Assembly: GCF_000003815.2 (NCBI RefSeq)
Contig: NC_049981.1
Location: forward strand, 11,626,028-11,690,027
Length of the DNA stretch: 64,000 bases
From: Branchiostoma floridae
Taxonomy: Eukaryota > Chordata > Leptocardii > Amphioxiformes > Branchiostomatidae
Direction of reading: 5' to 3'
In this document: piece by piece, positions 17,495 to 39,983 of the stretch
How positions within the stretch are numbered: position 1 is the stretch's first letter
Layout of the letters: each line of letters opens with the position of its first letter
Notes under the pieces: generated by a model
Database searches by the model: none
Told to the model about the DNA's origin: nothing
What the model saw: only the letters and a program-made list of their open reading frames with translations
Position numbers and translations under genes: made by a program

Positions 17495-17497
17495 GAC

Positions 17498-17676
17498 ATG
17501 GATGTAAACCAGAGAGGACTCATCTGCCCAGTTTGTAATGACCAGTTCAAGTCGCCCCTCACCCTCCCCTGCCTCCACTCCGTCTGCCGGAAGTGCGCGG
17601 AGGAAATTCTCGTGTCTCGCGAGAACGAGAGGAACGTCACTTCCGGAAGGTACACACCTGTTAGCGAACCCCGGAG
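17498..17676 (+). CDS. TRIM-Ig/FN3 exon 1: start and first part of RING
   Basis: ATG lies just after the TTTTGCAG acceptor. The exon encodes C-P-V-C, then C-L-H-S-V-C-R-K-C, six of the eight RING zinc ligands. The donor is GGAG|GTAAGC, phase 2. Confidence 0.85.
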
Positions 17677-20600
17677 GTAAGCAAGGACAAGCACGTTCGC
17701 GGTTGCATGTGCGTATGCGCGGCTACAGAAAGTGTGGGTAATACGTCAAAGGTGAACGCCAGTAGCTTTTACATTACGTATACAGTTGTCGTCTCAACCA
17801 TTGTCTCGATGTGCACAACAATGTTCAGACGTGATTTGTTTGTCTCAGGGGCCTTCACCTTTGACATATTACCCACAATTCTTTTCGCTGTGCATGTGTA
17901 CTTGGCACCGTGAACATGCTTATTGCTTTCAATTCCATGTACATGTATCTACTGCCGCAAAGGACCCATATAGAAAAGAGTAAAGAATGTTTAAAAGAAA
18001 GAAAGAAAATTACATGATTCACCGTTGCACAGCCCATATCCACCAATCGAAACAAAGATATTGAATGTAAAAATGGGTAACTTTAAAGTGTAAACATTCC
18101 AATTCAACTTACCTCACACAGTAGCCCACTGTGTCAAGGGTTCCAAAAGTCTTCTTCTTATAGATTCAGCATTTTTTTAAATCGCGGAATATGTCGCCGT
18201 TTCAAACACTGCCGCCATAAGTTTAAGTCAAGTTAGTGCCTGACCGCTTCAAATTGCACATACAGGGCTAGACGATTGGACAAACGTGTTGTTTGTCATT
18301 ACAAATATGAACTGGTCGTCTATGTGCTTCTCAATGTAGATTGGCATGTCAAGATCGAATTCTTCTGTTTTCTACAGTGTCTTGAAGTGCCCAGCCTGTA
18401 AGAAAGAAGTACCTCTGGACTCCCGGGGTCTGGACGGGCTGACCGAAAACTTCATCCTGAGGAATATCATCGACTCCATGCAAGAAGCCAAAGAGTATTC
18501 CGAACTTGACGATGACCTTGGCGTCCAGTGTGATGTTTGTCAGGAGGAACCCCCAAACCTCGCCACCAAAACCTGCGTGAAGTGCGAACTCTGTTACTGC
18601 GAGGAGTGTCTAAACTTGACCCATCCACCGGGGCGCCCCCTGACGGGGCACCAGCTCATCGCACCCACACGTGACCCAAAGTCAAACATCGTGAGATGTC
18701 AGGAGCACAACGAGATCATATCCCTGTACTGTGAGGATGACGACACAGTGGTGTGTCCCACATGTCATGCGCGCAGCCACAAAGGTCACAAGGTTATCCC
18801 AACGGACGAAAAATACCGTCAAATGAAGGTAGGTCGTTTTTCGGTAAAAGTCCCGGGAACGAGTCAACTAACCTTTGACCAGACAACTCTGTTGTTGTAG
18901 ACAATAAGTTATAACGGTGTTAGCTATAACAGCTTTTACATATGTGGAAAAAAAAAACTTTACGTAACAAACACCAAGTTTGATTGGGACTTGCCCCAAT
19001 GCGTTGGTGTTGGTTACGTAAAGTTTTTTTCACGGTGTCATTTACGAACACAGATTAGCTTTAATGCTAAGCTTTCACATATTCTCATGATTTATACACA
19101 ATATGAGTTGTGCAACGGCTTATATAGCTGTATCCTTTTTGTATAAACGATATGTATTTGCTTGCTATTAGCACCGCTTGACTGTGGGAGGTCGAGGGAT
19201 TTTTAGTATTTTCACAAAAACGTATTTTGTTATGACCTATGATAGTTCTTACTCCATTGTATTTTTGTCTCTCCAGGCTGCCCTGAAGGACAGTGTGAAA
19301 AGCCTGGTGAACGTGAACAGTACGTACGTCCAGCACATCGGGAAACTGCGCTCTGTTTGTGACGGGATCCAGGTATGGATCTTGTCATCAGTTCATTTGT
19401 TTTCTGTCTTATTGTGCGTAAGCAGTCATTTTAAGGTTGCAGAGTGGCAGGATGTGAGGAGGAAGTGGTGTAATGGATACTCAAAGAATTGGACGTATGG
19501 TAGGCAGTGGCAGGAAGTAGAGTTTAGGAGATGGTAAAGTCTGTCGTTAATTAGATTTGACAGTATAGGTCATGAGTCAATGGTAGAGGCTGCGAATTAA
19601 CGGGAGGTATTGTTTTAGCTATGTCTGTGTTTTCGCAGTCATGTATCTGCCAAATATGCGTATACAGTGTACGAACTTTTCATTGCAATCTGTATTTCAG
19701 AAGAGGGAGACCATCAAATGTTCGCTCATGCCCTTTGAATCTATCGCAATTTCAGGGCCATTTTGACAAGCAGGAAGGTTCGGTTAAGAAGGAGTTCTCC
19801 GATGTGAAGGCACTGGTTCAGAAGAAGGAGAAGGACATGCTGACCACGATAGAGAAGGAGAGGCGGGAGAAGGTTGAGGTCCGTCAGCAGCAGATAGACC
19901 ACTACAGGCGGACGTTAGAAAACACCACCGCGGCCGTCAGCTTCGCACAGGAGGCTCTGAGAGAGCGGGGACAGGCGTCGTTTTTACAGGTTGGAATTAC
20001 GTATATGGCACACACTTCTGACGTCATTTGGTACAGTGCACAAGCATTGATGATGGAGTAGTAGCCCCGAGAAGTAGGCAACAGGAAATGTTCGTTTTTT
20101 TTTCCACTTAGATGGTGAATAATTTAGATAGTCATATATTTAGGTGAACAACAAAACTTTTCAACAAAAGTTCGTCTCAGTAACTCTCTTGTTCTCCTCT
20201 CTGTTTCAGAAAGCCAACATGATCGACAAGAAGTAAGTTAACAAGCCTTTGAATTTTTCATCTTTGTACTGTCCATTTTTGAATAATATGTTTTCTTTTT
20301 TGAAACAAAATCATTCAACTGTTCTTCCCCTTGGTAGAGTGAAGTCAGCACTGGATTCAGCTCCACCAATACAAGACACTGAGCTGACGGAAATGCCCGA
20401 CAACCTTTTCGAGGCGAACCTTGATCTTGCCGACATCGCTTCTGTCATAAACAACAAGGCGTCAGTATCAAAAGGTAAATCACTGAACATCAATATGCAT
20501 ACAAAAATATTCGTTTTCACCGTACACTTTTATTACTTTTGATGATGCACGAACAGATACATGATAAACGTTGAATAGAAACGATTTTACATTGTGTTTC

Positions 20601-23600
20601 AGAATTACTTCATCAGACTTATTGTTCACTTCTCTATTTTATTTTTATAGCCCCGCCACCACCGGAAATACGCAAGAGCCAGTGCATTGTGGGAGAGTCT
20701 TCCATCTCCATCCGGTGGCATGTGCCCGACCCCTCGGTCTACAAGGACTACCAGGTAAAACTCAAGACAACCACAAAGTTTTAACACAGGTGTAATTGCA
20801 ACTTAATTGTACACTATGCGTACGATGCGAACATCACGCGTACGATACGAACATCACGCATACGATACGAACACTATGCGTACGTTACGAACACCACGTT
20901 TCCATGTATTGGTAAAGACAATGTAGAACTGCAAGGTTAAATCTTCTTCACCATTGATATTAAGAATGAAATCAGCATTAGCCTCGTGGGGCCTCGCCCG
21001 TGGCCTGTACTACGTTGAGGAGTCTCTGTTAAACCGAGCTGAGGTTTCTACATTTGTGATCGTGGCATCTAAACAGCTGTTAGCCTATCATAAAATTGTC
21101 TTTACCTAAAGAAAGCATTTATGCGATACTCTGATTGGTTGGCAGCTGGAAACCTCAGCCCTATTTGGTAAAGACTCCCCAAGGTATATTGTATAGGTGA
21201 CGGGCGAGCCTCTGCGTATAGGAGATTGGAAATCAGTAGCTACATACAGAACTGCATACTGTAACTGCCTTCTCCACTGTGGATGTAATGGATTACAGGT
21301 ACAATACTCAACCTTGCCGGATGTCGTGCGTAGCACGTCCCGTACCTCGGAGCGCCTGGCGGTGTTAGAGTCCCTCTCCCCCGGCACCACGTACACCTGC
21401 ACGGTACGGGCCAGGGACAAGGACGGCACCATCCACTGCAGCAAACCCGTGGACTTCAAAACTAAGGAACCAGGTGATCAGTAAGGCCAGAGCTGCCTGG
21501 TCTTTGGTTACTCGATCTTTTGAAATCTTTTGAACTTTTCTTGTCTTTGTTCTTCATTCTCGACTCACCAGTATGAATGTTTTCTTTTTCTTTTCTTTAT
21601 TAACTTTAGTACGATTTATACATTTGCAAATATAAGATGTATTAGTGGACGGATTAAAGGACCTATAGATTAATTCTCATGAAAAAGTCCCTTTATAACG
21701 ATTTAGCTTAAACTTTTAAACATGTAAGTCGTTGTGCACTCGCGTATGGTTCTTCATAATCCGTCCCTAATTCTTGACAAATTACCCCACCATTAACAAC
21801 ACTGGTAACATATCGTGAAAAAAGAGGATTTTTCTCCCCCATAATGTTCTCCCCCCTTCTTGTCTCATGTGTTTTAAAGGCAGCCTTGTTCAATATCGTT
21901 TGCGTCAAATGAAGATTAGGACCTGACGTCTACGTCTTAACTTTCCTGGGGATCGTCCCAGATCATCGATATCCATCCTTAGTGGTCGTTATTCTTCTAA
22001 CACGTATTCGGGAAAAAAGAGCACTCGTAAATTAATGGGTTAACATTAGGGGTACTCTTTTGGCGAAGTGTAATTGTTAGGTAAGATTTGGGGGTTGATG
22101 ATTTCGATACAGTGAAACAATCTTTGTATTCAATTATCTTCATTTCCCTTTAGTTTTAATTTCATGACTTTCTTTCTTCCTTTGCCTCGGTTGCATGTGC
22201 CTGACTTTATATGAACTGTAATGCATCTTTGAATGTATGAAATTAAAGTCCTTTGTTTCCCATTCTCTTTCTCCTTTAATTTATTTCGTATTCATTCTTT
22301 GGAGTGAAAAATTAAACGGAGTGTGCCATGATAAACAATGCATTTTGATTGCCAACAATTATGAATTGTTACGCCATATATGAGGAACATTAAGATATTG
22401 TTATGATATAATGGCCGAATCCTAAGTGTTGCTTATGAATGGATTACTAGTATTTGTAACACAAACCATATACAACTATGGCAGAAGGGCCAGAATCTTT
22501 GCCATACCAGCGCCTGGTGTCATCCGTTAGTTGCGCTTGGTATGCATATGAGATATACATGTATTTATAGAGAACGCATCTTGCATTTCACAGTCGCTAC
22601 TAGAGTAGTTAAAGCTACTACGTCAGAAGCTACGTCATCTTCGGCTGCTCGGCTTGCATCGTCACGCGAAGCTACGTCATCTTCGGCTGCTCGGCCTGTA
22701 TCGTCACGCGAAGATTCGCTTGCTCCGCCGAGCGAAGTGGCGTCCTCTCCGGATGCCCAGCTTACTAGTACTTCTTCAGGCGAAGCGTCGTCCTCTTTAG
22801 CTGCTCGGAAATATTCGTCAGGCAAAGCTACACCATCTTCGGCTGCTCGGCTTGCTTCGTCAGCCGAACCTAGCTCGGTGTCAACGCCAGTTAGCTCGGT
22901 AGAAAACGACGCCCAAATGACAAAGGAAGAAAAGCACGAGAATAAAGTTGAAAGTCTGTTGGCAACCAAAGAAAAACGCACCTCTCGAGTCATGGACTTG
23001 GTGGATGGATTTGAAAATCAGACCATAACTAATGGTATGCTTCTTGTCAAGTGCCCCAAATGGTGTCCTCTTGCTTGTAATACCTGCTAGCTAGTATCAT
23101 TCATGGTCTATCATAAATAGGCGATCAAACTATCCGCAAAAAAGTCGTCTATATATTTAGACATTGTCTGTGAATGTAAAAAGACTAGTTAGATATTTTT
23201 CAGTTTCGAATATTTTACAATGGAATCGTATTTTCAAGAATATTCCATTTGATAAGATAAATGACAGTTTTTTCATCAATGATTTCACGAAGGATCGGCA
23301 ACAAAATGGGTTATTGTAAAAGTCGCTGGTGTCGGTCTGTGTGCTGCAAGTACCTGTTTTGTTGGTGATAAGGTGAAATACGGTGCCTCGCTGCAGTATA
23401 TTTGTTATTTCTAGCTTTAACCGTGAGCATGGTATTCTCCATACAGCAGAAACGACAGAAAACGACGAATCTACGAAAGACATACCTGTGGAGAAACCGC
23501 CCTCCTCTGTGACACGTCAACCCTCGGCACGGCGCACCTCTGCTCAACGGGAGGAGAAAACTCCCGAACCCTCCCCTCCCAAAAAAGTGGAACCTTCCAA

Positions 23601-26600
23601 ACCCTCTCGGAAGGTGGAGGCGCCTAAACCGAACCCTCCGGCCATTCCTGCAAGGACCAGGTCGTTTTCCAAGCCACCCCCTCCCCAAAGGACCATGTCC
23701 CCGCCCCTCAAGGAAGATGTACGCAAACCCCCTCCTGCGCCAAGACATCCCGACCCCCCTCAACCGGAAATCAAGGGGAAAACAGAACCGAAAGTGGTCG
23801 TTGAGGGTATGATTTGAAACTTCAACATGGTGACCACACTTGATAGGATGGCTATTAAATGCCAACACTCTTTTACACGCTGGTGAAATGGGCTTTTCCT
23901 TCAGGGTTTTTTTCCTTAGGATTTCATAGTGGTCATCTTATGTTTTTCCTAATTTGACACCACCGTACCTGATTCTATTAAATAGAGTAACCACGCACAA
24001 TGCACTATGGAGTGGTGATACTGTTGGTATATTTTTGCGGTGGAATGGTGGATCGGACATCCAGGGCTTGTGGTGACTATATGGTAGAACTGTTTACCGT
24101 AGAATCTACCTGAGGGTTTCCTTGGTGCTGCAGTATCATGGGTACAACGGAGTCACTTTCTTCCCGTCTTTTTCATCATATTCATCACACACGTTTCATC
24201 ACACCCCTCGCTGGTGAAGGGCCGACCGGGTATGAAAAGTGAGTTTTTGCTAGTTTATTTTTAACGCCTTCTTGTTCAAACTCTCCCGGTTTTTAGATCC
24301 CAACGCCCCGGCCAGGGTGACGTCATTCCTGACGGATCTGGAAGTGAGAGGTCTCGCCGACGCCAAGTTCACCTGCGCCATCACGAGACCCGCCAGCGAA
24401 GTGCAGGCCAAGTGGTGCGTGTAGATATTTTTGGCAACGCCTCAAGAGCGGAGCCTGATTTAATCTGTCTTCTGAAAAATGCGTTTTATCAAAGCATAGT
24501 AAAATCTTTACATAGGTATCATATCAAATGTTTTCTGATTTATAAAATGAACTGAAATTTTGAAATGACTGTGGCTTAGGGAGTCACATAACTAAAAAAT
24601 GATTTAAATTATTCGTCTATGTAAGAATGCTGTGTATGATAACTAAACACAAATGACATAATTTCACAGGTCATGTGACGACAACGTGATCACGCCAAGT
24701 TCAAAGTACGAGATGACACACGAAGGCAAGACCCTGACCCTGATCGTGCACAACGTCCAGTCATCTGACACTGGGGAGTATGCGTGTGAAGTGGATGATA
24801 GCAAAACATGTGCCCAACTCTCCATAAAAGGTAGAACTAACCGTTTCATACCTTTAAAACAGTTGTTGCAGTGTTACTAAGTATCCATTTATGATTTAAG
24901 TAGACCGTTCATAATGACAGCATTGTGTACCTACCTCTTCAGAACCAGCATTGCCAGCCATCAACATCCAAAAATGTGAAGTGGAGGACAATGCCATTAT
25001 TGTCAGGTGGAATGTGCCGGAGGATGAGAAATATGACAATTTCCAGGTAATTCTGTCTCTCCCTCATACCTGTAGGTATCATTGCACCCACATTCCTTAC
25101 ACATGACTTAAGCTTAAATTTATGTAAAACAAATAAGAAAACATTTCTGTCAGACCCCGCACTTGGCCACCACCCACAGGCCCACTGCTACAGGTAGTTA
25201 CAGCCCCGGGCAGCGGAGTGTGCGGTAAGCAGGGGAGTGTGCGTTTCACATGTGAGGACCAGGTCCCACCACATATGAGGGTCCTGGTCCATCTGGTTTA
25301 TGTTATCTCGAAATGACAATAAAGACGACCAACTCTTGTGGTCGAGTCAATTCTAGAGTGTAAGCCAATGCATCCAGACCTCCTCTCTGTGCCACCCAAC
25401 CACACGCTACACAAAGGCTAATACAATGCATTTTCAACTGCATTTCTGTTCATCAATCCAATATTCCAATCCTATGAAGTCATTAAGACTTTGCACTTTG
25501 CCATGACTAACACAGAACCCTGTTTTGTTGTAGCTTCTGTATTCCAAGTCATTCCAGAGCGTGGGAAACCGGTTTTTGGAGAGCTCCATCTTTAAGACAG
25601 TGAACAACATCAAGGAAACGGAGTGCAAAGTGCTCGGCCTGTCCCCAGACTCTCACTACAGGTATACTACATTTGTTTCTGTCCTAATTGGTCAATGGAG
25701 GATGACAATAACATTACATTAATACCTTCTCAATATTAACATCAAAACAATGTCATTTCAAGTTACTGGTAGTTGATCCAGAGCCTGAATATTATAAGCT
25801 CTCTTAGTCCAAAATACCCAATTAACAATATGTCACACTAATACACATACATACCTGCTCTTCATCCCTGCGTACAATGATTTATCTTTCGTAATAGCTA
25901 ACAATCATTTAGTCTTTTTAATGAGTCAATGTCTGAACATATCATTGTTGAATACTTTATCTGCCAGGTTCTATGTACGTTCAACAACCGAGTGGGGCCT
26001 TAGTCAGCGGAGCAGTGGGGTACTCTTAAGGACACTCAAGAAAGGTAAGAAAATATACAATGTGATTTTGCTATTGAATTGCAGCTTGCTGTTAAAGAAG
26101 TGGGCAAAATCGCTTGTTGGTTCCCAGAGAGGCCATTAGAATTGTTTGTTCTGATTGGTTTGTTGGTTTTATTCTAATCACAATAATTCTGTCGTGCTCT
26201 TCTTGTAGTGCCGCCGCCATCTTTCTACAGGCAGCTTATCAGCTTGTCTGTCTCCGAGAAAGATTCCGCAAGATTCTCATGTGAACTTTCGAGACCTGTG
26301 CCTGTCAAATGGCTGAAGAACGATAAACCTATACCAGAGGATCCGCGCTTTAAGGTTCGTATTGGACAGATCTGCTAGGATAATTCCTATGTGGCTGCTT
26401 ATTATACTCTGATTTGATTGAGAAGGGACAGACCTGCTTAGTATACGACCTAACTCATCTGGATATATCTTGTCAACTTGCTTGGGTTTTCTTTATAGAT
26501 ATATGGGTTTATTTTGCAAGCAGGAGCAGGCTCTAAGAGGAGGTTAGGTCTACAACGATAGTATAATCGTATACAGAGAAAAACTGAAAACCCAACAACA

Positions 26601-29600: not shown

Positions 29601-32600
29601 TTTTGAAAGAACAAAAAGAATTGCAATTGACATTTTATTCGCTACTGGCAATAACTTATCTCAGGGTGTAAAAAGGACACTTTGTCGCTGAGTTTTTCAA
29701 GTCATTTTATTGGCGTCTTTGTATGTACTTTGTTGTGAGGAAATGTGAGAAAATGTTTGACATGTACTGTACAGGAGTACTGGTCGGGTGTACTGTATGT
29801 GCATTCAGCAGAACAATGTTTAGGTTTGAGTTTGACAGGGCTATCGAAAACACTTAATCGAGCAGAGACAGGGCCTATGTTATAGAGAGCAGTTATGTTC
29901 GTTGAGTACTCTATAGCGAAGGAATTTAGAATGTTGGAGCTGAAAACACTACTGTTGGATGACCATGAATGGTTTCAATGGTACATGGTAATGACAAATT
30001 GGTAACCTTAAGGCATATTGACATACATGTTGTTTGCAATGGTTACATGTAATCCGTAATAGGCCAAATGTTGGAAGAATCTTGTATGAAAGCAAACTAA
30101 CTCAGGTATGCCATAACCATAAACCTGTCTTATGATTCAAGCTTATAACAACATCATTGTGTCATAAGAAAGTATTGCAGATGTTTGGCAGAAAAGTAAA
30201 ATACAAAATGACATGTTCGCTTAACCAGGACATTGTCCTGAGTGCATCTATTTAAGAGAAGCATTCTTTACTATTCGAAACAGTTACTTATGATTTAGAC
30301 TCTAGCATTTCTAGCCTTTATAATAAGTAGCTAGATTGTTGAGTTGTGACCATAACTACTGCAGAATAAAGTGCCTCATTCCACAGCTAGAGGTGTGTGG
30401 AGCTTCTGTTGGTCTTCTTTTTCTTCAGCTCTTCTTTAATGACAATGGTAGCTTCCTTTAACAATGAAGTGTATCTTTGCTGACAATGTTGATATATTTT
30501 AACATTTCCTATTGACAAAACCAATCTATGGTCTCTTTGAACTCTTTCCTTAAGGCATTCACATGGTTTTAATTTCTAAGTAATAACTGTGTTGGTATAT
30601 CTTTAACAACCTGGATGGTAATCTCTGATGTGAAAGCAACAGAAGACTTTGGACCTGGCTAAAAAAACTAAAATATCCCAAAATGTTGATGTCTCATTTA
30701 CTAGGCTTTACAGATGGCCAATTCATTTCCAAGATCATAAATCCGATTTAAATCAACCTAAAAAGTGTAGTCGATGTGTTTGGAGTATCAAAGTGTCCAT
30801 AACAAGTTATCGAATCACAGTTCTAAATCCGTTATGATATGTATAAAATGTTTCCAGTCTGTTAACGTGCAACATGAAGAAAAAAATCCTTAATAATGTT
30901 TCTTAATGTGAAATAGGTCTTTCTCAAAACACCCGTGTGTGTCCCTGTCACTTTCAGAACAGCAACAGACAAATGTGAATAAAAGCGAATATTTTGTGAC
31001 TTTAGCCATAAATCACTCAGTCCCAGGCACGCCTGAGATCATCGCGGATGAGAGCACGGTAACGCCCAACTCCGTAACCCTGGTGTGGAAGGACCCGGAC
31101 CCGTCCAACGGTGACGTGTACCACGTGCTGTACGCCAAGTTCTACGGACAGAGTTCGGGAAGGTGAGGGTCAACTATGTGGTTTTGTTACTTCTGTTATG
31201 TGAGGAGGCTACATAGTAAGAGCTATATTTACAAATTTGAAATGTAATTTCGAACTCAAAAGTTGGATCTTGTTTTTGAATGTCCAGCTCCTGTCTTTGT
31301 CAAGGAATGAGCAATCCATCGCTTCTTTGTTACCTCATATTGTACAGATATAAAGACTTAGAACAGAAGAATAATATATCCTTAAACTTAACTCGATGAG
31401 TAGTGAATCATACGTATGACTCCCCTGTCCAATTTATGTAGTTTGCAGCATGCAATGATTATCATAGCGTCACCAACTCAGCAAGAATGAAAGCAATTGC
31501 AATTGCCATTTGTATTCATTCGTCATTTGAAAAAAACATATTCTCAGACTTGTTCCTTCACTTTGTCAGATATAAGACAATCTCCGGAGTTAAAGAACGC
31601 CAGTGCACCGTGAGTAACCTTGAACCAGACACTAAGTACAAGTTCTACGTGCGAGCAGTGGACAAGGCTGGCATCAGCAGGGGCGTGGTCATAGCCACGT
31701 CACCGCCAGGTAAACAACCATGTTGTTAGCGTTCATTTTGAAAATATTGCAAACTGAAATCACCGTTTTTTACTTGATCTCCCTACATAATGGTGGATAT
31801 TGGATAAAACATGAACTATAGCGTGACATACATGCATTCCAGGCGATGATGTCATAACTTTTTAAGGAGGTTTCTTGAGTACAATCTACATGTATATGAA
31901 CTCTTAAACTGCCAGCTAGGTGATAACCAAAATCTTCTTCATCATTTGAACCAACCTTAGACGATGGAGGAGTCCAGTTTCAGAAGATTCTTCGTGACGA
32001 AGAGGTGTTCTCCAAGGAGACTGCGACCTTCGAGTGCCAGCTGTCCGCTCCTAACGCCGAAGTGAAGTGGTTACGTAACAGCGTCCAGATTCACAGTAGC
32101 GGGAAATACAAGATAGAGGAGGATGGGAATCGGATGACACACAGGTATGCAAGTCTTCCTTTATCTGTGACCATCATTGTAGAAGCTTTAAGATGTTGTA
32201 GCAATAGTTGTATGTTGGTTTTGATTGTCATTGAAAACATATTGCAGCAATCGTATCTCCATATATGTGTCCCATTGATAAAGGCTACTATATGATCTAA
32301 AGTCATTGACCAAAATATGTTGTTCAGGCTTTGAATTGGCCGGGTCTTTTCTCTATTATGTCCGACTCATTATCTTCAACAATTTAATGATATGGCTTAA
32401 ACCGTATCATTGTTTGCGTCAAAACTACGTACACATAGCTTTAAGATCATCTATCATCGATAGAGCAAATACAGCGAAATAGTATCTATATATATGATCT
32501 CATGACAGGCAGTTGGTACAACCTGTCTGTAAGACACTCTACCGTAAGGCCTCCTTTTTGCCGCGTACTATCAGTGACTGGAACCTACTATCACAAGTAG

Positions 32601-35600
32601 CGGTCGAAGCAATCACCATTGACATGTTTGTGTCAATGGTCTCCAAGCTCATGTGAAAACCGAAACCTTGGCCGATGACCGTGACCCTTCACTCACAAGC
32701 GACAGAATAATCAGCACGTTGATTGTGGTCGCCTCAAAAGGAAGAGAGGAGAGATATACTGTACTCTGTTGTCCTCCAGGTTGATTGTAAACAACTGTGG
32801 CAAAGAGGACGTGGCTGAGTACACCTGCCAGTGTGGCATCAACAAAACAACTGCCAGTCTACGTGTCAAAGGTCGGTAACGCTGAAAAACTGAAAGCTTG
32901 CATCAATTTGCTTACGTATGTCATTTCCACAAATCAGCTCATTCATGTGGCAAGAAATTCCCAATCTGCCTCCACCCTTATCATGCCTCGCATTGTTTTT
33001 GGGGTGACTTAATTTATGTACATGGGTCATTCATTTCACATTGTTTTGCTGCTGCTTTCTTCTTTCTTTTGAATCTCGGGAGGACACGTCCTCCGTTGGT
33101 GTTTTCTATCTATCTCTTCTTCCATGTTCACTTTTGCAGATTCAGTGCTCTTTCGAACATACCTCTATTACAAAATCATATGTGAGTACTTGTGTGCTCT
33201 TCACTATGGAGATAATAAAACAACTAACCCCAGTATCATCTGTGTTCGTCATTTGGCTAACGAAAATCAAACACATGTAATAAAATGCATTAACTATTTT
33301 GCAATGTTTTGTGACGTTTGCCTAGCATTTACAAAGGCCAACAGCTCATACTTGAGCTATCCTATTGCTTTGTGTGGTATGTAGACATCATTTTAACAGG
33401 CAAACTTGTGGCACCATGTGTAGCTTAGGTTGTATATTATGTCTATTGTATAGTGTATGTTATGTTTATTGTATAGTGTTAGTACCACAATCAATGCATA
33501 TGTTTCTTTAATATTTGGTATTTACTAATCACCATCATATCATATTGTTGATGTATGTAGCAATCACTGCCATACATGTATCACCACTCTCCCTCTTTGC
33601 ATTTTGCACAGATTCCATGTCCTGTTCATGATCATCTTGTCAAACCATCTCAAAACCTTGTATTTCCATTTTACACTATTTGCCCCAGTGTACAATACGC
33701 TTCGCATCAGTCAATGAATACATGCATCAAAACATATTTCTCTGTTCTCCTTACATGAAGATGTCATGTTCTTTTAAAACTGGTGGAAGACGAAATACAT
33801 TTTATTTCTAAATGCCCCTCTAATGACCAAGGAAAGATGAGCTATTCAAAGAGGCCTATGCGGCTATGCCTGTAAAACCCCACAACAATTTCCAAACGTT
33901 TACTGACGAAAATAAAACTATAACCTTGTTAATTTAACAAAACCCAAAACAAGTGGACGTGTCTTCTTTCACTGCTTCCAAAAAAGAAGTTAAACTGTAA
34001 AAGCTTAGATTATAGTTACCATCAGTTCATATTTAGAATTGTCACTTGTTGTCACCATTAATATTGTTATCTACATGACTTGTATATTACTGAAGTCTTG
34101 TGTTTTCCATATACTGTATGTTTTCGTGTTGAAGTTAGCCCTCGGTCATAAACATGCAAATAAACTCCCTTATACTTTTATCTCCCTCCAGAATCACAAG
34201 GCCCAGAGATTCTGTCCGACAAGTGTAAGATAGAAAGCGACTCTATCACCCTTTACTGGACCACTCCCACCCTCAGCACGTTCCGTACGTACCAAGTCCT
34301 GTACGCCACCAGTTTCGGACCCAACGTCACCGATAACTACGACTACCAGACCCTGTCGGACATCCGCACCACGTTCTGCCGTATCCCCGCCCTACAGGCC
34401 GACACCACGTACAAGTTTTACGTCCGAGGCGTCACGAAGGACGGCATCAGCCGGCCAAGTCGAGGCGTGGAGCTGACGACCCAGCCCGAAGGTACAGCCG
34501 AGCGCCCGGGCTCCGAGACTCTCAGAATTACCGTAGTGTAGGAAAATGTTGCAGCTACAAATAATAATTTTAAGTCAATAACCTAGCAATATTCTACTTA
34601 TTTATAATGATGATGATGTTGATAGTTGAATTTTAGGCATGATACCTTGCTTTGGAAGTTTCTTATTAGGGCAAGCTGGATACATCTCAGGCCGAAAAAG
34701 TGCTGACCAAACTTTGGTTCTTGGTGTAGATATGCATACTATTTTATAGGTACGTTAATTCCTTTAGGTTCAAAGAGCGCATCATGACATAGCATCTACT
34801 GTATGTATATGTACATTAGGATAACATGTATTTATGAGCCAATTGACAAAAATGGGGTTAGAATAGCTCAAGGACTACCTTGTCTGATGTTCCCCTTGTG
34901 CTAGCTGTCTGCCTTTGCCATGATGGGGCGGGTATCTGTGGTGTAGAAGCTATTGCGTTGCTTACAAAGGTCAGCAAACAAGTCATTGCAGTGCCTACTT
35001 CAAGCATTGTTGCTTTCAGATACTCATATGTACATATGTACATCTCCATCGAAGAGCTACATTTTGTATTTGAAAATTATAGTTCACCTTTATCCTGGGA
35101 TAACCTATATCTGTTGTTTTTAAAAATAGAGTATTTACTAATAGGGATATCAACAGTTGAACTCGTTGTCGCTGGTATCAAACTGCGGTATTTTGAAAAT
35201 ATTGCAGCTTAAAACCACTGCTCATCGACTTGATATACCTAAATACCCTGGTTTTGAAAACAGCAGATATAGGTTACCCCATGAATAAAGGTGAACTAGT
35301 GTTATGTTCATACTGCGTGAAATTTGGCAATATTCTGAACAAGCCAAGAGATTCCACCAAATGTACAATTCTAAACTCATTTTTCGGACTTAGCCTCCTC
35401 AGAAAAACATTTTTTATTCTATTTTCAACTTAACAGAAACATCTTTGATAGGTTTCAATTCTCGGTACATTTACATGTTCGTTGGAGGTGTCTAATCGTA
35501 TGTACATTGCTTTAGCTCAGCAGAGAGCTGTGCTTAGCTCTAAGGTGCCTTAGACTATGTAGTGCCTTGATTTAGGTCAAACTACAGCTCTTAGTTGTCA

Positions 35601-38600
35601 TACCTAGACATGCATTACATCCTGGACACATGGGGCTTGTGCTGTTACCATGGCAACCATTTTGCCACGCCCAACTGGTGAGGGGTTCTATCTAACAATG
35701 GCCGTGTGGGTGTGGTTAATGGTGATGGTGTCTTCTTTGTGTGTTCTTGTCTGGTGTTGTCGATTCTTCTTGGTCTAATAAAATATGTCTTCTCCACTGC
35801 GATTCCCTGCTTCTTTTTCCTTGATTGCTTGTTTCTACTAACACTCTTCATGTTGTGTGGAAAAGCAAAGTAGAATGCTCAACGTTTGTTCATCCGTAGG
35901 TTACGCCTTGTGGCCATCAAGCAATACCATACATGTATGTATGCAGCTACAAGTTCAATCAGTACAAGTCTAAGGACCACAATACACATGCTTAAACTCA
36001 AGGCATATAAAGCTTCTAAAGGTGGAAGGTCGTATATAGAAGCTCGTGTAATCATATGTACATGTTTTAATAGTGACAAAGAGAACTTTAAAGCTAAATA
36101 AGACAGAAAATCAAGGCAAACTATTTTGTCCAAAATAGGACAACAACAATCCAGGATTCAAATTTCTTAACAGAATTTGTGTTTGATCTGCAGCATTTCC
36201 AGATTACCAGGTCCAAAACTACTATCAACGCCACCAACAACTTTTATTAGGTTTTGAAATCCCCCTTTTTTATTTTGTCTTCACCATAAAGGCGACACTC
36301 TACATATCATAGAACAAATCATTCTCATTTATCATGCCAGCACTCCCTTACCCTACATAACGCATCACCATATAACGTTTATACATCAGGCTTTCATCAC
36401 TCAAATCACTCACGGTGAAATTTTGCCCCAAGGTTTATCCATTAAACTTAAAGGACACCATCAAAGCATGAAAGCACGCACATATAGGCTTACTCCCTGA
36501 AAGCGTTGGCAAAAAAAAAACCCCACTGGCTTGCTGTGTCCCATATTCCTAGTTTTCAGTAAAATCCATCCACAAATTAAACGTTTATGTTACAACATGT
36601 ACGACAATGGGTCAGTTAGGTACCCGGCTATATTTGCGAGCGTTCTGGACATTTTTAAACTGATTATGTTGATTTAAAATGTAGATTTAGCCCTTCGAAA
36701 ATGCGTCCAACAGGGCGCAGGGTACCTAACTGTCTACTACGATACTGGTGTTGGGTTTAACCAAGTGGCAAGTCCTTGGTTTAACGAAGTCAGAAACAAC
36801 CATCGGCCAGTTAGGTACCCGGCTATATTTGTGAGCATTCGGGCCATTTTTCAACTGAATATGTCGATTTGAAATGTATTTGTGATACCAAAACTTTGTC
36901 CGAGGGGGCGCTCGGTACCTACCTGTCCTATAACGTTATATGTACTGGTGTTGGGTTTAACGAAGTCGGGATGTGGTACTTGTACTCACAGGAAGGCGGA
37001 GCCGCTTGCGGACTCGAGCCAGAAGCGAGGAGAACCTGTCCCGGGCACTCTCTCCGTCCGCTCAGAAAAAACGACTTTCCTTCAACTTCAAAGACTTCAT
37101 AAGTGACAGCGCACCCGGACTAACACGTACGGTGTACACATGGATTTTTTTGCAGCTTTCCGCTGAAAAAATGCATCCAAAGTCTCTACTTGCAGTTGCT
37201 CGCATATTTGACCAAAAAGGGAAATTTTGTTTTGTATAAACAAAAAAAAAAGCTTGTAAACGATTTTCAAGAAATGATCTAGGCTTGATGCAAACCTACA
37301 AACATAAACTACGATTTTGTTTGTTAGATTTGGCAAAAGTTAATTGGCAAAGGCTTCTGCTGGCTATGGTATAATTCATACAGTAGAAAAATGTTTGTGC
37401 TTGCTATCTTTCTTTGACTATTCACCTTTACTGTAAAAGTATTGAAGATAAAACTTGCCATATCTATTGGGCAAGGTCTCCTTTACTACTGTATGTTTTG
37501 CTAAGTCGTTACTATCGATATCATCTCTGTCCTTTACGGCACACATATTGACACCCGCACCGTGTCAAAATGTACACATAGGAACACTTCGGACAAAGAT
37601 TTCAATGATATATAAGAGTTTGTGCATAAAAACTTCATAGCCAGTTCATAGGCGGAATACTCCAGCTATGGCGGTAAGTGGAGGGGGGCAAACAATTGTT
37701 TTGTATTTCTTGAATTTCAGAGGCATGGTAGGATTCGATTTTTAAACATGTTGTGTTGCGTGTTGTTGCACAGTGCATATTACATACCTCCGGATCCTAT
37801 TCAAATTCTGCAATATCAAATTTTCATTTTTCAAATGTTCTCCCTTTGATTTTTGCAAACGGTAGCAAACTGAACTGCAAAAGAAACTGTATTTGAGGCG
37901 CTTACTTCATGCCTTGATATCAAAGTCTTTAGGCAAGTACATGAATAGTTTTTCATGTTCGTATTTAGGGAAGGACCCAGGGATCAACATGTCCGACGTG
38001 CTGAGGAACTACGTGTCTCCGTTCTTCAAGAAGGGACTGGTCAGTACCATGGTCAAGATCGGGTCCGAAGTGCGGTTTGAGTGCAGCATTGGAGGGTTTC
38101 CTAACCCCATGGTCATCTGGTCAGTCGCCTATATAAGCCTATAGCTAATTCAAGCGATTTCTGCATCCTCACCACAGTTTTACACACGATTTATCTAGAC
38201 TTGCAAACATAGTATACTAGTAATGTGTGTATTCAGCATACATGAAAGATGGCTTGTTTCCATACATTGCATGTGTTGAAATGATATATCTCTAATTACA
38301 TGTACATATCAATGATATCCAAGTTTTATTTGAAACTCGTTGAGTGCTCTGTTACTCGGTCGTAGCGCCATTGAGGCCACCGTCGTGGTGAATTGAAATG
38401 ACTTAGTTACTTGGGCCCTTTGTTCCGGTCGGAACATAGGCCACCGATGATGGTCCTCCATTGTACCCTCCTCTGGGCTTTCTTCCTCAGATCCTGCCAG
38501 CTGTTGCAGATACTTTTCATCTCTTCCTCCGTATCTCTCCTCCAACTATTCCTGGGCCTCCCCCTCTTCCGCTTGCCCTGAATTGAAATGAGGGTGCTCC

Positions 38601-39906
38601 AAATCCCCACCGCACAATATTGTGGCTCTCCTTGGTGCTGAAATGGGCTCAGTTGTATCATAAGCCGTTATACTCAGTGAGAAAAAGATGTTTTCAACCA
38701 TGACTTGCATGTTGTTCCACAGGGAGAAAGACGGCCGTGAGATTCGGCAGGACTACAGACACAAACTGATCCGGGAAAGCGAGGAGCTGTTCACACTTGT
38801 CATCTTCAGGGCCCGCGCCGAGGATTCTGGGACTTACGAAGTAGTAGCCACAAACGAGGCTGGCGAGCGACGCAGTTCAGCCACCCTCGGGGTCACCGAA
38901 CTCGAGTCCGTTAACGAAGTCGGGAGCTCGCCCGTCCCCCCTCCCCGCAGGAGGGGACGGATCAGCGCGCCCATCTTCGGGGACGTGAGGGAGAAGGTCG
39001 GACAGTTCGAGCGGGGGGCGAAAAGGTACGAGAGCTTCCGGGAGCGGCGACAACCGACACCGCCCGAGGTTACCGAGTCCAACCTGCGCCGGTCACAGAG
39101 CACAGAGGTATGCAAGTCCTGCGATTCTTAATGTTTCTTAGACAGAGTGCAAGTGTACTTAAATCATAGCTTTTCAGAGCTTTTCCCAAGGAGGGGAAGA
39201 CGGTTCATGTGCCCCCATGCTCTGACATAGTACCCCCATACTATTGGGATTAGATTCTCTGACCAGCTCAAAATTTAGATTGACCTTGTTACTGAATCAC
39301 ATTTGGCCTGCCACAGTCTTAAATTTTGTCCCCCAGGAAGTCTTAGGATGCCCCATTCGCTCACCACTTGCTCCCTTGCAATGTTTCTCCTTGCAATGTT
39401 TATCTAGAAAAACGGTACAAGTATGTGATGATAGGGAAGATCTCGAAGCGACACAAGTAAAAATAGTCACCAGTTGTTCAACCGTTCGTTCTTGGCCTTC
39501 TTCAGAATGATTAACCCAACTATTTGACAATGTGACCTGAAGTACTATCGTTATTGGTCAAAGGTGTCCTGAAGTTAGTATACTTCACCTTCGATCACCT
39601 ATTCCCATCCTCAGCTGGAGGGTAGGGGACTAAGACCACGTCTGGACCGCTAGGAGCGCGATTTGTCAGGCTACTTCCATCCCTCATCTTCCTAAAGATT
39701 GTTCAAATCATTCTCGTTCACAGATGCTGTCCCATCACCAGCGGTCCAAAGTGAGCGCCCCGCTGTCCTGGCTCAAGAAGCAGCTGCGGTCATCTCTGGC
39801 TGATGACGAACTGAAAGACGATAAGGAAGAACGCGAATCAAAGCCGAGCAAGGCCCGAAGCTTCTTCGGCTCCCTTCGGAAGACTCACAGTACTAGCCGA
39901 TTCTAG
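17498..39906 (+). CDS. TRIM-Ig/FN3 chimeric protein (RING-Bbox-coiled coil-COS/FN3 plus titin-like array)
   Basis: This is a predicted E3 ubiquitin ligase with 27 coding exons joining to 1683 codons plus stop; every junction keeps frame. Approximate domains by residue: RING 10-67 (C10, C13, C25, H27, C30, C33, C64, C67), B-box 1 111-153, B-box 2 166-206, coiled coil 211-325, COS-like box 317-373, FN3-1 374-466, low-complexity and Pro-rich linker 467-733, Ig1 734-826, FN3-2 827-929, Ig2 930-1017, Ig3 1018-1113, FN3-3 1114-1207, Ig4 1208-1299, FN3-4 1300-1399, basic linker 1400-1444, Ig5 from 1445, basic tail to 1683. The front end matches class-I TRIM proteins such as MID1. The usual B30.2/SPRY domain is absent and an I-set Ig/FN3 array of the titin/obscurin/UNC-89 kind replaces it. 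No signal peptide or membrane segment is present, so it is probably cytosolic and cytoskeletal. ATG 17498 is chosen because it lies three bases after an acceptor and directly before the RING; a 5' UTR exon must lie upstream. Confidence 0.85.
18378..18828 (+). CDS. TRIM-Ig/FN3 exon 2: end of RING, B-box 1 and B-box 2
   Basis: The acceptor is TTTCTACAG. It opens with the last RING ligands (K-C-P-A-C), making a C3HC4 finger with a long loop. B-box 1 follows (CDVC, CVKC, CYCEEC, two His), then B-box 2 (C-x2-H-x7-C-x7-C-x2-C-x4-H-x2-H). The donor is ATGAAG|GTAGGT, phase 0. Confidence 0.88.
18950..19031. repeat. Intronic inverted repeat (small MITE-like hairpin)
   Basis: AAAAAAACTTTACGTAAC with AACACCAA pairs with TTGGTGTT and GGTTACGTAAAGTTTTTTT, giving arms of about 27 bp around a 28-base loop. 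It lies in intron 2 of the TRIM-Ig/FN3 gene. Confidence 0.65.
19277..19372 (+). CDS. TRIM-Ig/FN3 exon 3: coiled coil
   Basis: This 96-bp exon has a TCTCTCCAG acceptor and a CAG|GTATGG donor, phase 0 at both ends. It encodes 32 helical residues starting A-A-L-K-D-S-V. An exon of this size (96 bp) after the B-boxes is common in TRIM genes. Confidence 0.82.
19756..19989 (+). CDS. TRIM-Ig/FN3 exon 4: coiled coil
   Basis: This 234-bp exon is phase 0 at both ends. It encodes 78 charged helical residues (K-K-E-K-D-M-L-T-T-I-E, then R-Q-Q-Q-I) and ends in A-S-F-L-Q, the start of the COS-like region. A 234-bp coiled-coil exon is typical of TRIM genes. Confidence 0.85.
20210..20232 (+). CDS. TRIM-Ig/FN3 exon 5: 23-bp micro-exon of the COS-like box
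   Basis: The acceptor is CTGTTTCAG and the donor AAGAA|GTAAGT. It encodes K-A-N-M-I-D-K plus two bases of the next Lys codon. A micro-exon of exactly this size at this point is a known feature of several TRIM genes. Confidence 0.75.
20338..20474 (+). CDS. TRIM-Ig/FN3 exon 6: COS-like box
   Basis: The acceptor is CTTGGTAG. The first base completes Lys, then V-K-S-A-L-D-S-A. Two predicted helices flank an acidic stretch, resembling the COS microtubule-targeting box of class-I TRIMs such as MID1. The donor is AAAG|GTAAAT, phase 1. Confidence 0.78.
20651..20754 (+). CDS. TRIM-Ig/FN3 exon 7: first half of FN3-1
   Basis: The exon encodes A-P-P-P-P-E-I, then S-I-S-I-R-W-H-V, the N-terminal strands of an FN3 with the conserved Trp. 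It ends at D-Y-Q in phase 0. The acceptor is TTTTTATAG. Confidence 0.82.
20818..20897. repeat. 20-bp minisatellite, four copies
   Basis: The units are GCGTACGATGCGAACATCAC and three variants with one to five changes. The array lies in intron 7, between the two halves of FN3-1. Confidence 0.8.
21299..21473 (+). CDS. TRIM-Ig/FN3 exon 8: second half of FN3-1
   Basis: It encodes V-Q-Y-S-T-L, then L-S-P-G-T-T-Y-T-C-T-V-R-A-R-D and ends in E-P in phase 1. The L-x-P-x-T-x-Y motif is the FN3 tyrosine corner. A second donor 7 bases later (21481) would break the phase with the next exon. Confidence 0.82.
22594..23034 (+). CDS. TRIM-Ig/FN3 exon 9: Ser/Ala-rich repetitive linker
   Basis: The acceptor is CATTTCACAG and the donor AATG|GTATGC, phase 1 at both ends. 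It encodes about 147 residues. The first half repeats a 14-residue motif, A-T-S-S-S-A-A-R-L-A-S-S-R-E, from a 42-bp unit, with degenerate copies after it. It is predicted to be disordered. Both strands are open here, probably because of the repeat composition. Confidence 0.7.
23447..23806 (+). CDS. TRIM-Ig/FN3 exon 10: proline-rich linker
   Basis: This 360-bp exon is phase 1 at both ends. It encodes about 120 residues rich in Pro, Lys and Ser, with stretches such as K-P-N-P-P-A-I-P-A-R and S-K-P-P-P-P-Q-R. These are candidate SH3-binding polyproline segments. It contains no fold I recognise. Confidence 0.72.
24297..24414 (+). CDS. TRIM-Ig/FN3 exon 11: first half of Ig1
   Basis: It begins D-P-N-A-P-A and includes A-K-F-T-C (B-strand Cys). 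It ends two bases into the conserved Trp codon, and the donor is AAGTG|GTGCGT. Confidence 0.8.
24670..24830 (+). CDS. TRIM-Ig/FN3 exon 12: second half of Ig1
   Basis: The first base completes Trp. L-T-L-I-V and D-T-G-E-Y-A-C-E (F-strand Cys) follow. It ends in L-S-I-K, phase 1. The acceptor is ATTTCACAG. Confidence 0.84.
24943..25046 (+). CDS. TRIM-Ig/FN3 exon 13: first part of FN3-2
   Basis: It encodes E-P-A-L-P-A-I, then A-I-I-V-R-W-N-V-P. It has exactly the length (104 bp) and phases (1 in, 0 out) of exon 7, the matching half of FN3-1. Confidence 0.84.
25534..25661 (+). CDS. TRIM-Ig/FN3 exon 14: middle of FN3-2
   Basis: It encodes L-L-Y-S-K-S-F and ends L-S-P-D-S-H-Y-R, where the Arg codon is split (phase 2). 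The donor is TACAG|GTATAC. Confidence 0.8.
25968..26044 (+). CDS. TRIM-Ig/FN3 exon 15: end of FN3-2
   Basis: This 77-bp exon completes Arg, then F-Y-V-R-S-T-T-E-W-G-L-S, the F and G strands of FN3. It ends in phase 1. Confidence 0.8.
26209..26354 (+). CDS. TRIM-Ig/FN3 exon 16: first half of Ig2
   Basis: It encodes V-P-P-P-S-F, then A-R-F-S-C-E and V-K-W-L-K-N-D, with both the B-strand Cys and the C-strand Trp. It ends P-R-F-K in phase 0. Confidence 0.84.
26708..26825 (+). CDS. TRIM-Ig/FN3 exon 17: second half of Ig2
   Basis: It encodes H-V-L-T-I-T-D-I, then D-D-A-G-E-Y-S-C-D, the F-strand motif. It ends in L-K-V-K, phase 1. Confidence 0.84.
27041..27328 (+). CDS. TRIM-Ig/FN3 exon 18: complete Ig3
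   Basis: A whole I-set Ig domain lies in one phase 1-1 exon. It shows A-T-F-I-K-P-L, L-E-C-E-V, V-R-W-L-K-S-G, L-I-I-S-D-V and D-A-S-E-Y-A-C-E. It directly follows Ig2 with no FN3 between them. Confidence 0.88.
27329..31020. other. Largest intron of the TRIM-Ig/FN3 gene (3.7 kb)
   Basis: The intron lies between Ig3 and FN3-3. It contains the MITE at 28210-28410. The rest is AT-rich. I found no further exon with Ig or FN3 motifs in any frame, although a missed exon flanked by phase 1 introns would not disturb the frame. Confidence 0.5.
28210..28410. mobile_element. MITE, CTAGTTCA...TGAACTAG family (copy 1)
   Basis: The ends are inverted: GCTAGTTCATCTGTATCAGCGGGGTA and its degenerate complement ending in GTTGAACTAGTG. 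The subterminal GTT(G)TTTTTAAAAAC and TAGGGATATCAA blocks are shared with the copy at 35079. Confidence 0.6.
31021..31162 (+). CDS. TRIM-Ig/FN3 exon 19: first half of FN3-3
   Basis: It encodes V-P-G-T-P-E-I-I, then S-V-T-L-V-W-K-D-P-D and Y-H-V-L-Y-A-K-F. It ends in a split Arg codon (phase 2). The acceptor is ATCACTCAG. Confidence 0.84.
31570..31709 (+). CDS. TRIM-Ig/FN3 exon 20: second half of FN3-3
   Basis: It encodes Y-K-T-I-S-G-V, then L-E-P-D-T-K-Y-K-F-Y-V-R-A-V-D-K-A-G, a textbook FN3 end. It ends P-P in phase 1. Confidence 0.86.
31961..32144 (+). CDS. TRIM-Ig/FN3 exon 21: first two thirds of Ig4
   Basis: It encodes V-Q-F-Q-K-I-L, then A-T-F-E-C-Q-L and V-K-W-L-R-N-S. It ends in a split Arg codon (phase 2). 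Confidence 0.84.
32508..32656 (+). mobile_element. LINE reverse-transcriptase C-terminal fragment
   Basis: One frame reads C-K-T-L-Y-R-K-A-S-F-L-P-R-T-I, then S-D-W-N-L-L and ends in TGA. This is the usual C-terminal end of CR1-like LINE ORF2 (F-x-P-R-x-I-x-x-W-N). It lies in intron 21 in the same orientation as the host gene. Confidence 0.6.
32780..32871 (+). CDS. TRIM-Ig/FN3 exon 22: end of Ig4
   Basis: It completes Arg, then L-I-V-N-N-C-G-K-E-D-V-A-E-Y-T-C-Q-C-G, with the F-strand Cys. It ends L-R-V-K in phase 1. The donor is GTCGGT, weaker than the others. Confidence 0.82.
33764..33935 (+). mobile_element. CR1-like LINE remnant
   Basis: One frame contains V-E-D-E-I-H-F-I-S-K-C-P, the E-x-x-x-H-F-x-x-x-C-P motif of LINE ORF2 ends. 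An AATAAAACTATAACCTT tail follows. It lies in intron 22. Confidence 0.5.
34192..34491 (+). CDS. TRIM-Ig/FN3 exon 23: complete FN3-4
   Basis: A whole FN3 lies in one 300-bp phase 1-1 exon. It shows S-I-T-L-Y-W-T-T-P, T-Y-Q-V-L-Y-A-T-S-F and T-T-Y-K-F-Y-V-R-G-V-T. The acceptor is CTCCCTCCAG. Confidence 0.88.
35079..35302. mobile_element. MITE, CTAGTTCA...TGAACTAG family (copy 2)
   Basis: The left end, AGTTCACCTTTATCC with ACCTATATCTGTTG, is the complement of the right end, CAGATATAGGT with GGTGAACTAGTG. The interior has GTTTTTAAAAA and TAGGGATATCAA as in the copy at 28210. Confidence 0.7.
36613..36925. repeat. Tandem pair of ~120-bp elements with inverted ends
   Basis: The units are 36613-36732 and 36808-36925. 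Each starts CAGTTAGGTACCCGGCTATA and ends GGTACCTA(A/C)CTG. The sequence TACTGGTGTTGGGTTTAAC follows both, so flank and element were duplicated together, about 200 bp in all. The second copy ends 66 bases before exon 24. Confidence 0.7.
36992..37126 (+). CDS. TRIM-Ig/FN3 exon 24: basic Ser-rich linker
   Basis: The acceptor is TACTCACAG and the donor AACAC|GTACGG, phase 1 at both ends; this donor is the only one tested that fits the next exon. It encodes R-R-S-R-L-R-T-R-A-R-S-E-E-N-L-S and then L-S-F-N-F-K-D-F. R-S-E-E-N-L-S resembles a basophilic-kinase or 14-3-3 type site (inference). Confidence 0.65.
37969..38119 (+). CDS. TRIM-Ig/FN3 exon 25: first half of Ig5
   Basis: It encodes K-D-P-G-I-N, then P-F-F-K-K-G-L, V-R-F-E-C-S-I-G-G-F-P-N-P and V-I-W. 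The Trp codon is split in phase 2, exactly as in Ig1. Confidence 0.84.
38305..38661 (-). mobile_element. LINE ORF2 C-terminal fragment
   Basis: On the minus strand it reads G-K-R-K-R-G-R-P-R-N-S-W-R-R-D-T, then W-x-D-L-R-K-K-A-Q-R-R-V-Q-W-R and G-L-C-S. This conserved C-terminal block is common to many LINE endonuclease/reverse-transcriptase ORFs. It lies in intron 25, opposite to the host gene. Confidence 0.75.
38723..39107 (+). CDS. TRIM-Ig/FN3 exon 26: end of Ig5 and basic tail
   Basis: It completes Trp, then E-K-D-G-R-E, L-F-T-L-V-I and E-D-S-G-T-Y-E-V. The F-strand Cys is replaced (Y-E-V instead of Y-x-C). A tail with S-S-P-V-P-P-P-R-R-R-G-R follows, a candidate SH3 ligand, then an Arg-rich helix. 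It ends in phase 0. Confidence 0.84.
39724..39906 (+). CDS. TRIM-Ig/FN3 exon 27: C-terminus and stop
   Basis: It follows a CAG acceptor in phase 0. It encodes 60 residues, Lys/Arg/Ser-rich, with W-L-K-K-Q-L and A-R-S-F-F-G-S-L-R-K, and ends S-R-F-TAG. No domain is recognised. Confidence 0.78.
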   Translation: MLSHHQRSKVSAPLSWLKKQLRSSLADDELKDDKEERESKPSKARSFFGSLRKTHSTSRF

Positions 39907-39977: not shown

Positions 39978-39983
39978 AATAAA
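39978..39983 (+). terminator. Polyadenylation signal AATAAA of the TRIM-Ig/FN3 gene
   Basis: AATAAA lies 72 bases after the TAG stop. A later T-rich and GT-containing stretch (about 40005-40040) could serve as the downstream element. Confidence 0.55.

Follow-up and report, generated by a model that had tools for sequence, protein, structure and literature searches.

MID1, TRIM9, TRIM36 and TRIM46 belong to subfamily B of the TRIM proteins (PMC3503706), and two COS motifs, FLQ and LDY/IDF, have been named for MID1 and MuRF1 (PMC3971405). The helical region of MuRF1 binds titin at site A168-A170, a tandem with the order Ig-Ig-FN3 (PMC3971405), and introns at the ends of titin and twitchin modules have been described as phase 1 (PMC8001218). 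Orthologues of TRIM42 are reported from amniotes and not from fish in the accessible part of PMC3137616, which also describes other exchanges of C-terminal domains among fish TRIMs; Branchiostoma TRIMs with two MATH domains have been described as well (PMC3503706). The entries consulted in the human TRIM table of PMC2533329 include Ig of filamin type but no I-set array. No description of a TRIM with an Ig/FN3 array was found in the openly accessible literature, as judged by titles and the beginnings of abstracts; databases may well carry the gene described below under some unspecific name.

A stretch of Branchiostoma floridae DNA of 64,000 nucleotides (G000:C3:11626028-11690027, hereafter the window) was analysed. 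A chain of 26 exons on the + strand, running from 17498 to 39906, gave one frame of 1637 codons with a single terminal stop (Table 1). All 25 introns (25/25) are GT-AG and their phases join. An earlier, sequence-only reading had joined a TRIM ligase to an Ig/FN3 array in a single frame-consistent model; this was confirmed on the genomic sequence, and the start at 17498 and stop at 39906 of that reading were recovered to the base in the model. The encoded order is RING, two B-boxes, a putative coiled coil, a COS-like region and FN3, followed by two linkers, Ig-FN3-Ig-Ig-FN3-Ig-FN3-Ig and a basic tail.

Table 1. Exons of the TRIM-Ig/FN3 gene and one probable further exon, in window coordinates
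Feature	Position	Strand	Support or remark
Exon 1: start codon and RING first half (C..C, CxHxxCxxC; Pfam RING 10-43)	17498..17676	+	
Exon 2: RING last CxxC (CPAC-K), B-box 1, B-box 2	18378..18828	+	MID1 B-boxes 2jun 4.3e-20
Exon 3: putative coiled coil, 96 nt	19277..19372	+	gene model
Exon 4: putative coiled coil, 234 nt; COS motif FLQ (residues 318-320) at its end	19756..19989	+	
Exon 5: 23 nt microexon, COS-like region	20210..20232	+	gene model
Exon 6: COS-like region; INN at second COS motif	20338..20474	+	gene model
Exon 7: FN3a first half	20651..20754	+	phase-0 intron after column 35, as FN3b and C10
Exon 8: FN3a second half; stop 21482-21484 if read past donor	21299..21473	+	
Exon 9: Ser/Ala-rich linker, 42-nt repeat, phase 1-1	22594..23034	+	held-out codon score 0.003
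Exon 10: Pro/Lys-rich linker, phase 1-1	23447..23806	+	held-out codon score 0.376
Exon 11: Ig1 first half	24297..24414	+	gene model, Pfam
Exon 12: Ig1 second half	24670..24830	+	gene model, Pfam
Exon 13: FN3b part 1	24943..25046	+	phase-0 intron after column 35, as FN3a and C10
Exon 14: FN3b part 2	25534..25661	+	gene model
Exon 15: FN3b part 3	25968..26044	+	gene model
Exon 16: Ig2 first half	26209..26354	+	gene model, Pfam
Exon 17: Ig2 second half	26708..26825	+	gene model, Pfam
Exon 18: Ig3, entire domain	27041..27328	+	gene model, Pfam
Exon 19: FN3c first half	31027..31162	+	gene model, Pfam
Exon 20: FN3c second half	31570..31709	+	gene model, Pfam
Exon 21: Ig4 first half	31961..32144	+	gene model, Pfam
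Exon 22: Ig4 second half	32780..32871	+	gene model, Pfam
Exon 23: FN3d, entire domain in single exon	34192..34491	+	
Probable extra exon: phase 1-1, 45 residues, Ser/Arg-rich, outside the 26-exon model	36992..37126	+	codon score 0.368
Exon 24: Ig5 first half	37969..38119	+	gene model, Pfam
Exon 25: Ig5 second half (titin/palladin/Robo-like I-set) and basic, Pro/Ser-rich tail	38723..39107	+	
Exon 26: basic tail and stop codon	39724..39906	+	AATAAA at 39978

A dynamic-programming exon finder, although free to break the region up into more than one gene, gave a single chain across this interval. Its codon table was trained on segments that we had chosen by hand, and the finder is therefore not independent of the manual reading; the cost per gene was also our choice. 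The output was edited at exon 8 (where a single exon replaced two small ones), at the starts of exons 9, 10, 14 and 26 and where exon 23 ends; a further exon was left out. Each edit was made for a better-placed acceptor or donor that restored domain sequence. At the intron stop frequency of 5.3% of triplets, 1637 open codons would arise by chance with a probability of about 1e-39, a figure that ignores the freedom in choosing splice sites. Introns at module ends, whether of a domain or a linker, are all phase 1 (10/10), so that any two such modules fit and the agreement in frame is less telling; among the remaining 15 introns phase 1 occurs once, in the intron opening the first FN3. Every array domain but Ig5, whose last exon continues into the tail, is a symmetric phase 1-1 module (seven of eight). 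An AATAAA lies 72 bases past the final stop. An acceptor-like AG is found 2 bases 5' of the ATG (acceptor score 2.9 at 17496), and a 5' UTR exon may lie further upstream of exon 1.

Codon scores were set against 88 open intron stretches (mean -0.53, 95% point -0.12, maximum 0.139). The segment between FN3d and Ig5, at 36992-37126, scored above that maximum, in a set that includes its own frame. It is probably coding and possibly alternatively spliced; its donor is weak and an alternative end lies at 37102. The exon finder had proposed 37023-37126, which was replaced. Two tandem repeats were noted in the gene: one with a 42-nt unit at 22626-22713 (2.1 copies, 95% match) within linker exon 9, of a length that preserves the frame, and one with a 20-nt unit at 20818-20898 (4.1 copies) in the intron splitting FN3a.

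The sequence-only reading had named a full C3HC4 RING, both B-boxes and an FN3 following the COS-like box, and each was recovered. The RING has eight of eight zinc ligands (CPVC, CLHSVCRKC, CPAC) and matched Pfam RING families from 4e-8, three of them above their cut-offs. B-box 2 matched zf-B_box (2.4e-9), B-box 1 matched ANCHR-like_BBOX at 3.8e-5 (24.1 bits, below its cut-off of 27), and the double B-box structure of MID1 covered residues 109-201. In a PDB search with the TRIM part (32 sequences), the top matches were these Midline-1 B-boxes at 4.3e-20 and TRIM3 at 3.6e-18. Matches to TRIM3, TRIM72, TIF1-beta and TRIM25 extended through the coiled coil, which alone matched weakly (TRIM3, E 0.018; MuRF1, E 0.09). 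FN3a matched Pfam fn3 at 386-461 (2.1e-10). Microtubule binding through the COS-like region was half supported: FLQ is kept at 318-320, but the position of LDY/IDF, within one residue of the MuRF1 spacing, reads INN (365-367). LDL at 356-358 is another candidate for the second motif, both motifs having been read by eye and by count on the model translation.

No SPRY was found in the Pfam scan of the model, and the SPRY of the paralogue described below, used as a query across the whole window, gave a best E of 0.65; a hidden SPRY in the window was rejected on this ground. The gene has an FN3 after a COS-like region, the FN3 position of class I TRIMs, but not their C-terminal SPRY/B30.2. Class III chains end at the FN3, whereas in the present gene model the frame continues through exons 9-26; the TRIM part would fall into class III if the locus held two genes. 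The MuRFs of class II have a single B-box and no FN3, whereas here two B-boxes and an FN3 are present.

The further five Ig and three FN3 domains of the earlier reading were borne out by Pfam on the translation (I-set 9.2e-77 in five stretches, fn3 1.7e-31 in three). No kinase or RhoGEF domain was found in the Pfam scan of the 26-exon model. Against the PDB, the array matches were led by MyBP-C (3.1e-50) and titin (8.8e-48) among the best 60 of 237 sequences; a profile of Ig1-4 also placed MyBP-C and titin at the top, with obscurin 2edf (82.0 bits) as the best single-domain chain among the best 60 of 233. The array had been described as titin/obscurin-style. This stands for the Igs, which are of obscurin/titin/MyBP-C type, but not for the FN3s, whose nearest match is the FN3 of a class I TRIM; the tandem of titin-type Ig and titin-type FN3 that defines the titin/obscurin family is present in its Ig half only.

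A profile of FN3b-d had MID2 (40.2 bits) and TRIM9 (38.4) among its best single-domain PDB chains, with Robo FN3s level with these at 38.1-38.2, EphA8 at 37.0 and single-domain titin chains at 26.4 and 24.9 (all among the best 60 of 169). The 16 titin FN3s among the matches listed each reached at most 22.0 bits. FN3d alone matched a Robo FN3 first (27.1 bits), then MID2 (21.6) and TRIM9 (21.1); its predicted structure had a mean pLDDT of 58.5 and was hence set aside as evidence. FN3a alone matched fibronectin and Eph receptors best, with MID2 at 22.2 bits. A profile of MID2 and TRIM9 scored ROBO2 highest (42.9), just over FN3c (42.6) and FN3d (41.5), while FN3a, at 23.2, fell under ROBO2 and three of eight titin pieces. 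Human proteins alone leave the origin of the FN3s undecided, because MID2/TRIM9 and Robo are level and FN3a is not TRIM-like in the PDB.

The closest relative of the TRIM part in its own genome, among 86 matches outside the locus, lies at G000:C10:16242424-16255924 (hereafter C10), with 55% identity over residues 5-146 and 53-55% over RING and B-box 1. On one strand it carries a RING, B-boxes, coiled-coil pieces, an FN3 and PRY-SPRY (1.6e-14, 1.1e-17), read from separate pieces of the genomic stretch rather than from a spliced full model, and by this domain order it is a class I TRIM. No Ig was found in the C10 stretch with the Ig1-4 profile or the five window Igs as queries. The FN3b-d profile gave the C10 FN3 98.4 bits, the gene's own FN3a 44.4, MID2 38.7, ROBO2 38.3 and TRIM9 33.3; eight human titin FN3 pieces reached at most 28.1, and FN3s from contig C18 at most 26.1 (eight listed of nine). 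The latter had been retrieved with a profile built from the eight human titin pieces, with a minimum length of 65 residues; all nine came from locus L045 and none from L046. With the C10 FN3 as query, FN3d scored 65.3, FN3c 63.9, FN3b 61.1, FN3a 39.4, MID2 34.9 and titin at most 17.8.

In a tree of FN3s, in which titin, MID2 and TRIM9 are represented by aligned pieces rather than whole domains, FN3a-d and C10 fell on one side of a branch with support 91/82, below the star level of the tool (95/80). MID2 came next (90/73), and 17 titin-type rows stood apart (88/73). FN3a-d had grouped together (84/77) before C10 was added; with it they no longer formed a group of their own (2% of bootstrap trees), which means that the copies may predate the split from the C10 line, or that too short a signal hides the order. 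Among the window FN3s, FN3a sits on the longest branch. A phase-0 intron after alignment column 35 is common to FN3a, FN3b and the C10 FN3 and absent from FN3c and FN3d. We conclude that the FN3s of the array most likely arose by copying from a class I TRIM FN3, so that a TRIM joined to a titin-like block appears less likely; a titin/obscurin source for the FN3s was judged unlikely from the domain scores and the tree. It appears that in a class I-type TRIM the SPRY was lost, the FN3 duplicated and cytoskeletal Igs interleaved. The gene is unusual, a variant of the class I TRIM architecture, and half of the earlier reading is corrected.

The whole genome (513,431,437 bases, 431 contigs) was searched, and 54 of 351 array candidates and 91 of 520 TRIM candidates were scored. 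Of 39 matches to the array query, 15 fell in the locus and 24 outside it at 23-40% identity; 21 of these 24 are on C18, and C3, C5 and C13 have one apiece. The TRIM query gave 91, five in the locus and 86 outside at 21-55%. None of the 24 outside array matches lay within 1 Mb of an outside TRIM match, and no near-copy of the gene was found among the scored candidates. Nine stretches on contigs of prokaryote genomes matched a pattern, none of them a relative. All 150 B-box candidates scored in the amphioxus genome, of 569, passed the family cut-off; its TRIM repertoire is strongly expanded. Two TRIMs on C5 with RING, B-box 1 and B-box 2, L042/L043 (G000:C5:5179984-5189196, -) and L038 (G000:C5:8360176-8367465, -), both have Ras/Rab GTPase exons after them on their own strand (Pfam Ras 2.1e-47 over four joined pieces, 5.3e-13 in one piece). 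They are possible TRIM-Rab fusions, and the recurrence of this arrangement in two paralogues argues against a chance juxtaposition. Downstream in the window, at 49733-61642 on the + strand, are open frames with a DHH-like piece (Pfam DHH 9.7e-5, 23.1 bits, cut-off 28.1) and a 1461-codon frame without a Pfam match; together these look to us like a PRUNE/PRUNE2 homologue.

The TRIM part and the Ig/FN3 tail look like one gene in the genomic sequence. In a two-gene alternative, a class III-like TRIM (RING-B1-B2-CC-COS-FN3) would stop at 21484, and a neighbouring gene for a cytoskeletal Ig/FN3 protein would begin within exon 9 or close to it. This would fit the stop codon found three codons past the exon 8 donor on read-through; human TRIM42 has exactly this TRIM domain order in the table of PMC2533329. 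The frame of exon 9 is open upstream to 22407 and contains ATGs, so that a second start is possible there, and ATTAAA occurs at 21653, 22242 and 22311. However, AATAAA is absent from the 1120-base interval that separates exons 8 and 9. With linker exons 9 and 10 left out of the codon table, exon 10 scored above the null maximum and exon 9 above its 95% point but under its maximum; immediately ahead of exon 9, where its frame is still open, the score dropped to -0.68, and exon 9 accordingly appears to be joined in phase 1 to an upstream exon. The FN3s that would fall into a second gene are, moreover, closest to the class I TRIM FN3 and group with C10 and FN3a, which favours a single gene with internal duplication over two neighbours. 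We regard two genes as unlikely. Still less credible is the origin implied by the earlier reading, in which exon shuffling would have brought in the entire array in one piece from a titin/obscurin-like gene. In its favour, the Igs are of the right kind, the module-end introns are phase 1 as in titin and twitchin (PMC8001218), and C18 holds most of the outside array matches, at 0.66-0.71 and 16.57-17.28 Mb; against this, the array FN3s reach 98 bits with a class I TRIM FN3 but at most 28.1 with the tested titin FN3s, and share an intron with C10.

For function, the main rival to a sarcomeric ligase is one protein acting on microtubules, cilia or axons, as MID1, TRIM9 and TRIM46 do, with the rod as a spacer or as a docking arm for adhesion complexes. 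By its domains the TRIM part groups with MID1, TRIM9, TRIM36 and TRIM46 (subfamily B, PMC3503706), its best PDB match is the MID1 B-boxes and FLQ is retained; the second COS motif is not kept as read, however, and the Ig1-4 profile turns to MyBP-C, titin and obscurin. This alternative is possible, if on balance rather improbable. The rod also includes an Ig-Ig-FN3 run (Ig2-Ig3-FN3c) in the order of titin A168-A170, which suggests that the coiled-coil/COS region may bind the protein's own rod or that of titin. The gene might represent a separate TRIM class with ligase and sarcomere address in one chain, which stretch or filament binding could activate, and a genomic record of the MuRF-titin partnership; as FN3c is of TRIM type and not titin type, we hold this to be doubtful.

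We consider it probable that the locus is one gene for a predicted cytoplasmic class I-type TRIM ligase in which five Ig and three FN3 domains form a rod that takes the place of the SPRY and would dock the ligase on a cytoskeletal lattice. The RING, with its zinc ligands in place, would recruit an E2, and the coiled coil would dimerise the ligase, as in the TRIM family. The two Ig/FN3 arms would then attach it to the lattice, most likely in striated muscle, where it would mark neighbouring proteins with ubiquitin. Since the modules are symmetric (phase 1-1), splicing could alter arm length without loss of frame. A cytoskeletal and probably sarcomeric predicted E3 ligase is the most likely role, favoured because the Igs are closest to those of obscurin, MyBP-C and titin. 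The gene suggests that a ubiquitin ligase can swap its substrate-reading domain for a scaffold rod made partly of TRIM FN3 copies, and cautions that an 'Ig/FN3 array' may be just half titin-like. If it is sarcomeric, a chordate would have local protein turnover and a filament address in one gene, and the MuRF-titin coupling would become testable from the genome side.

With the class I TRIMs of subfamily B (MID1, MID2, TRIM9, TRIM36, TRIM46 and TRIM67) the gene has in common the RING, both B-boxes, the FN3 and, putatively, the coiled coil and COS-like region, and with the C10 paralogue also the intron within the FN3; the C10 stretch continues to PRY-SPRY, whereas here an eight-domain Ig/FN3 rod stands in place of the SPRY. 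TRIM42 (class III, RBCC-COS-FN3) agrees with the predicted domain order up to the FN3, and the table of PMC2533329 gives no array for it. In the same table MuRF1-3 (class II; TRIM54, 55 and 63) share RING and B-box 2 and, putatively, coiled coil and COS, with no B-box 1 or FN3 given, but they are separate proteins that bind titin, and their coiled-coil similarity to the window gene is weak (E 0.09). Myospryn (CMYA5) and FSD2, muscle TRIM-related proteins with two FN3 domains, differ in their terminal SPRY; the accessible part of PMC5524797 mentions no Ig array in them and gives no RING for FSD2. Obscurin, titin and MyBP-C, from which the gene departs in lacking a kinase or RhoGEF match and in FN3s nearer those of class I TRIMs, are the best PDB matches of its Igs.
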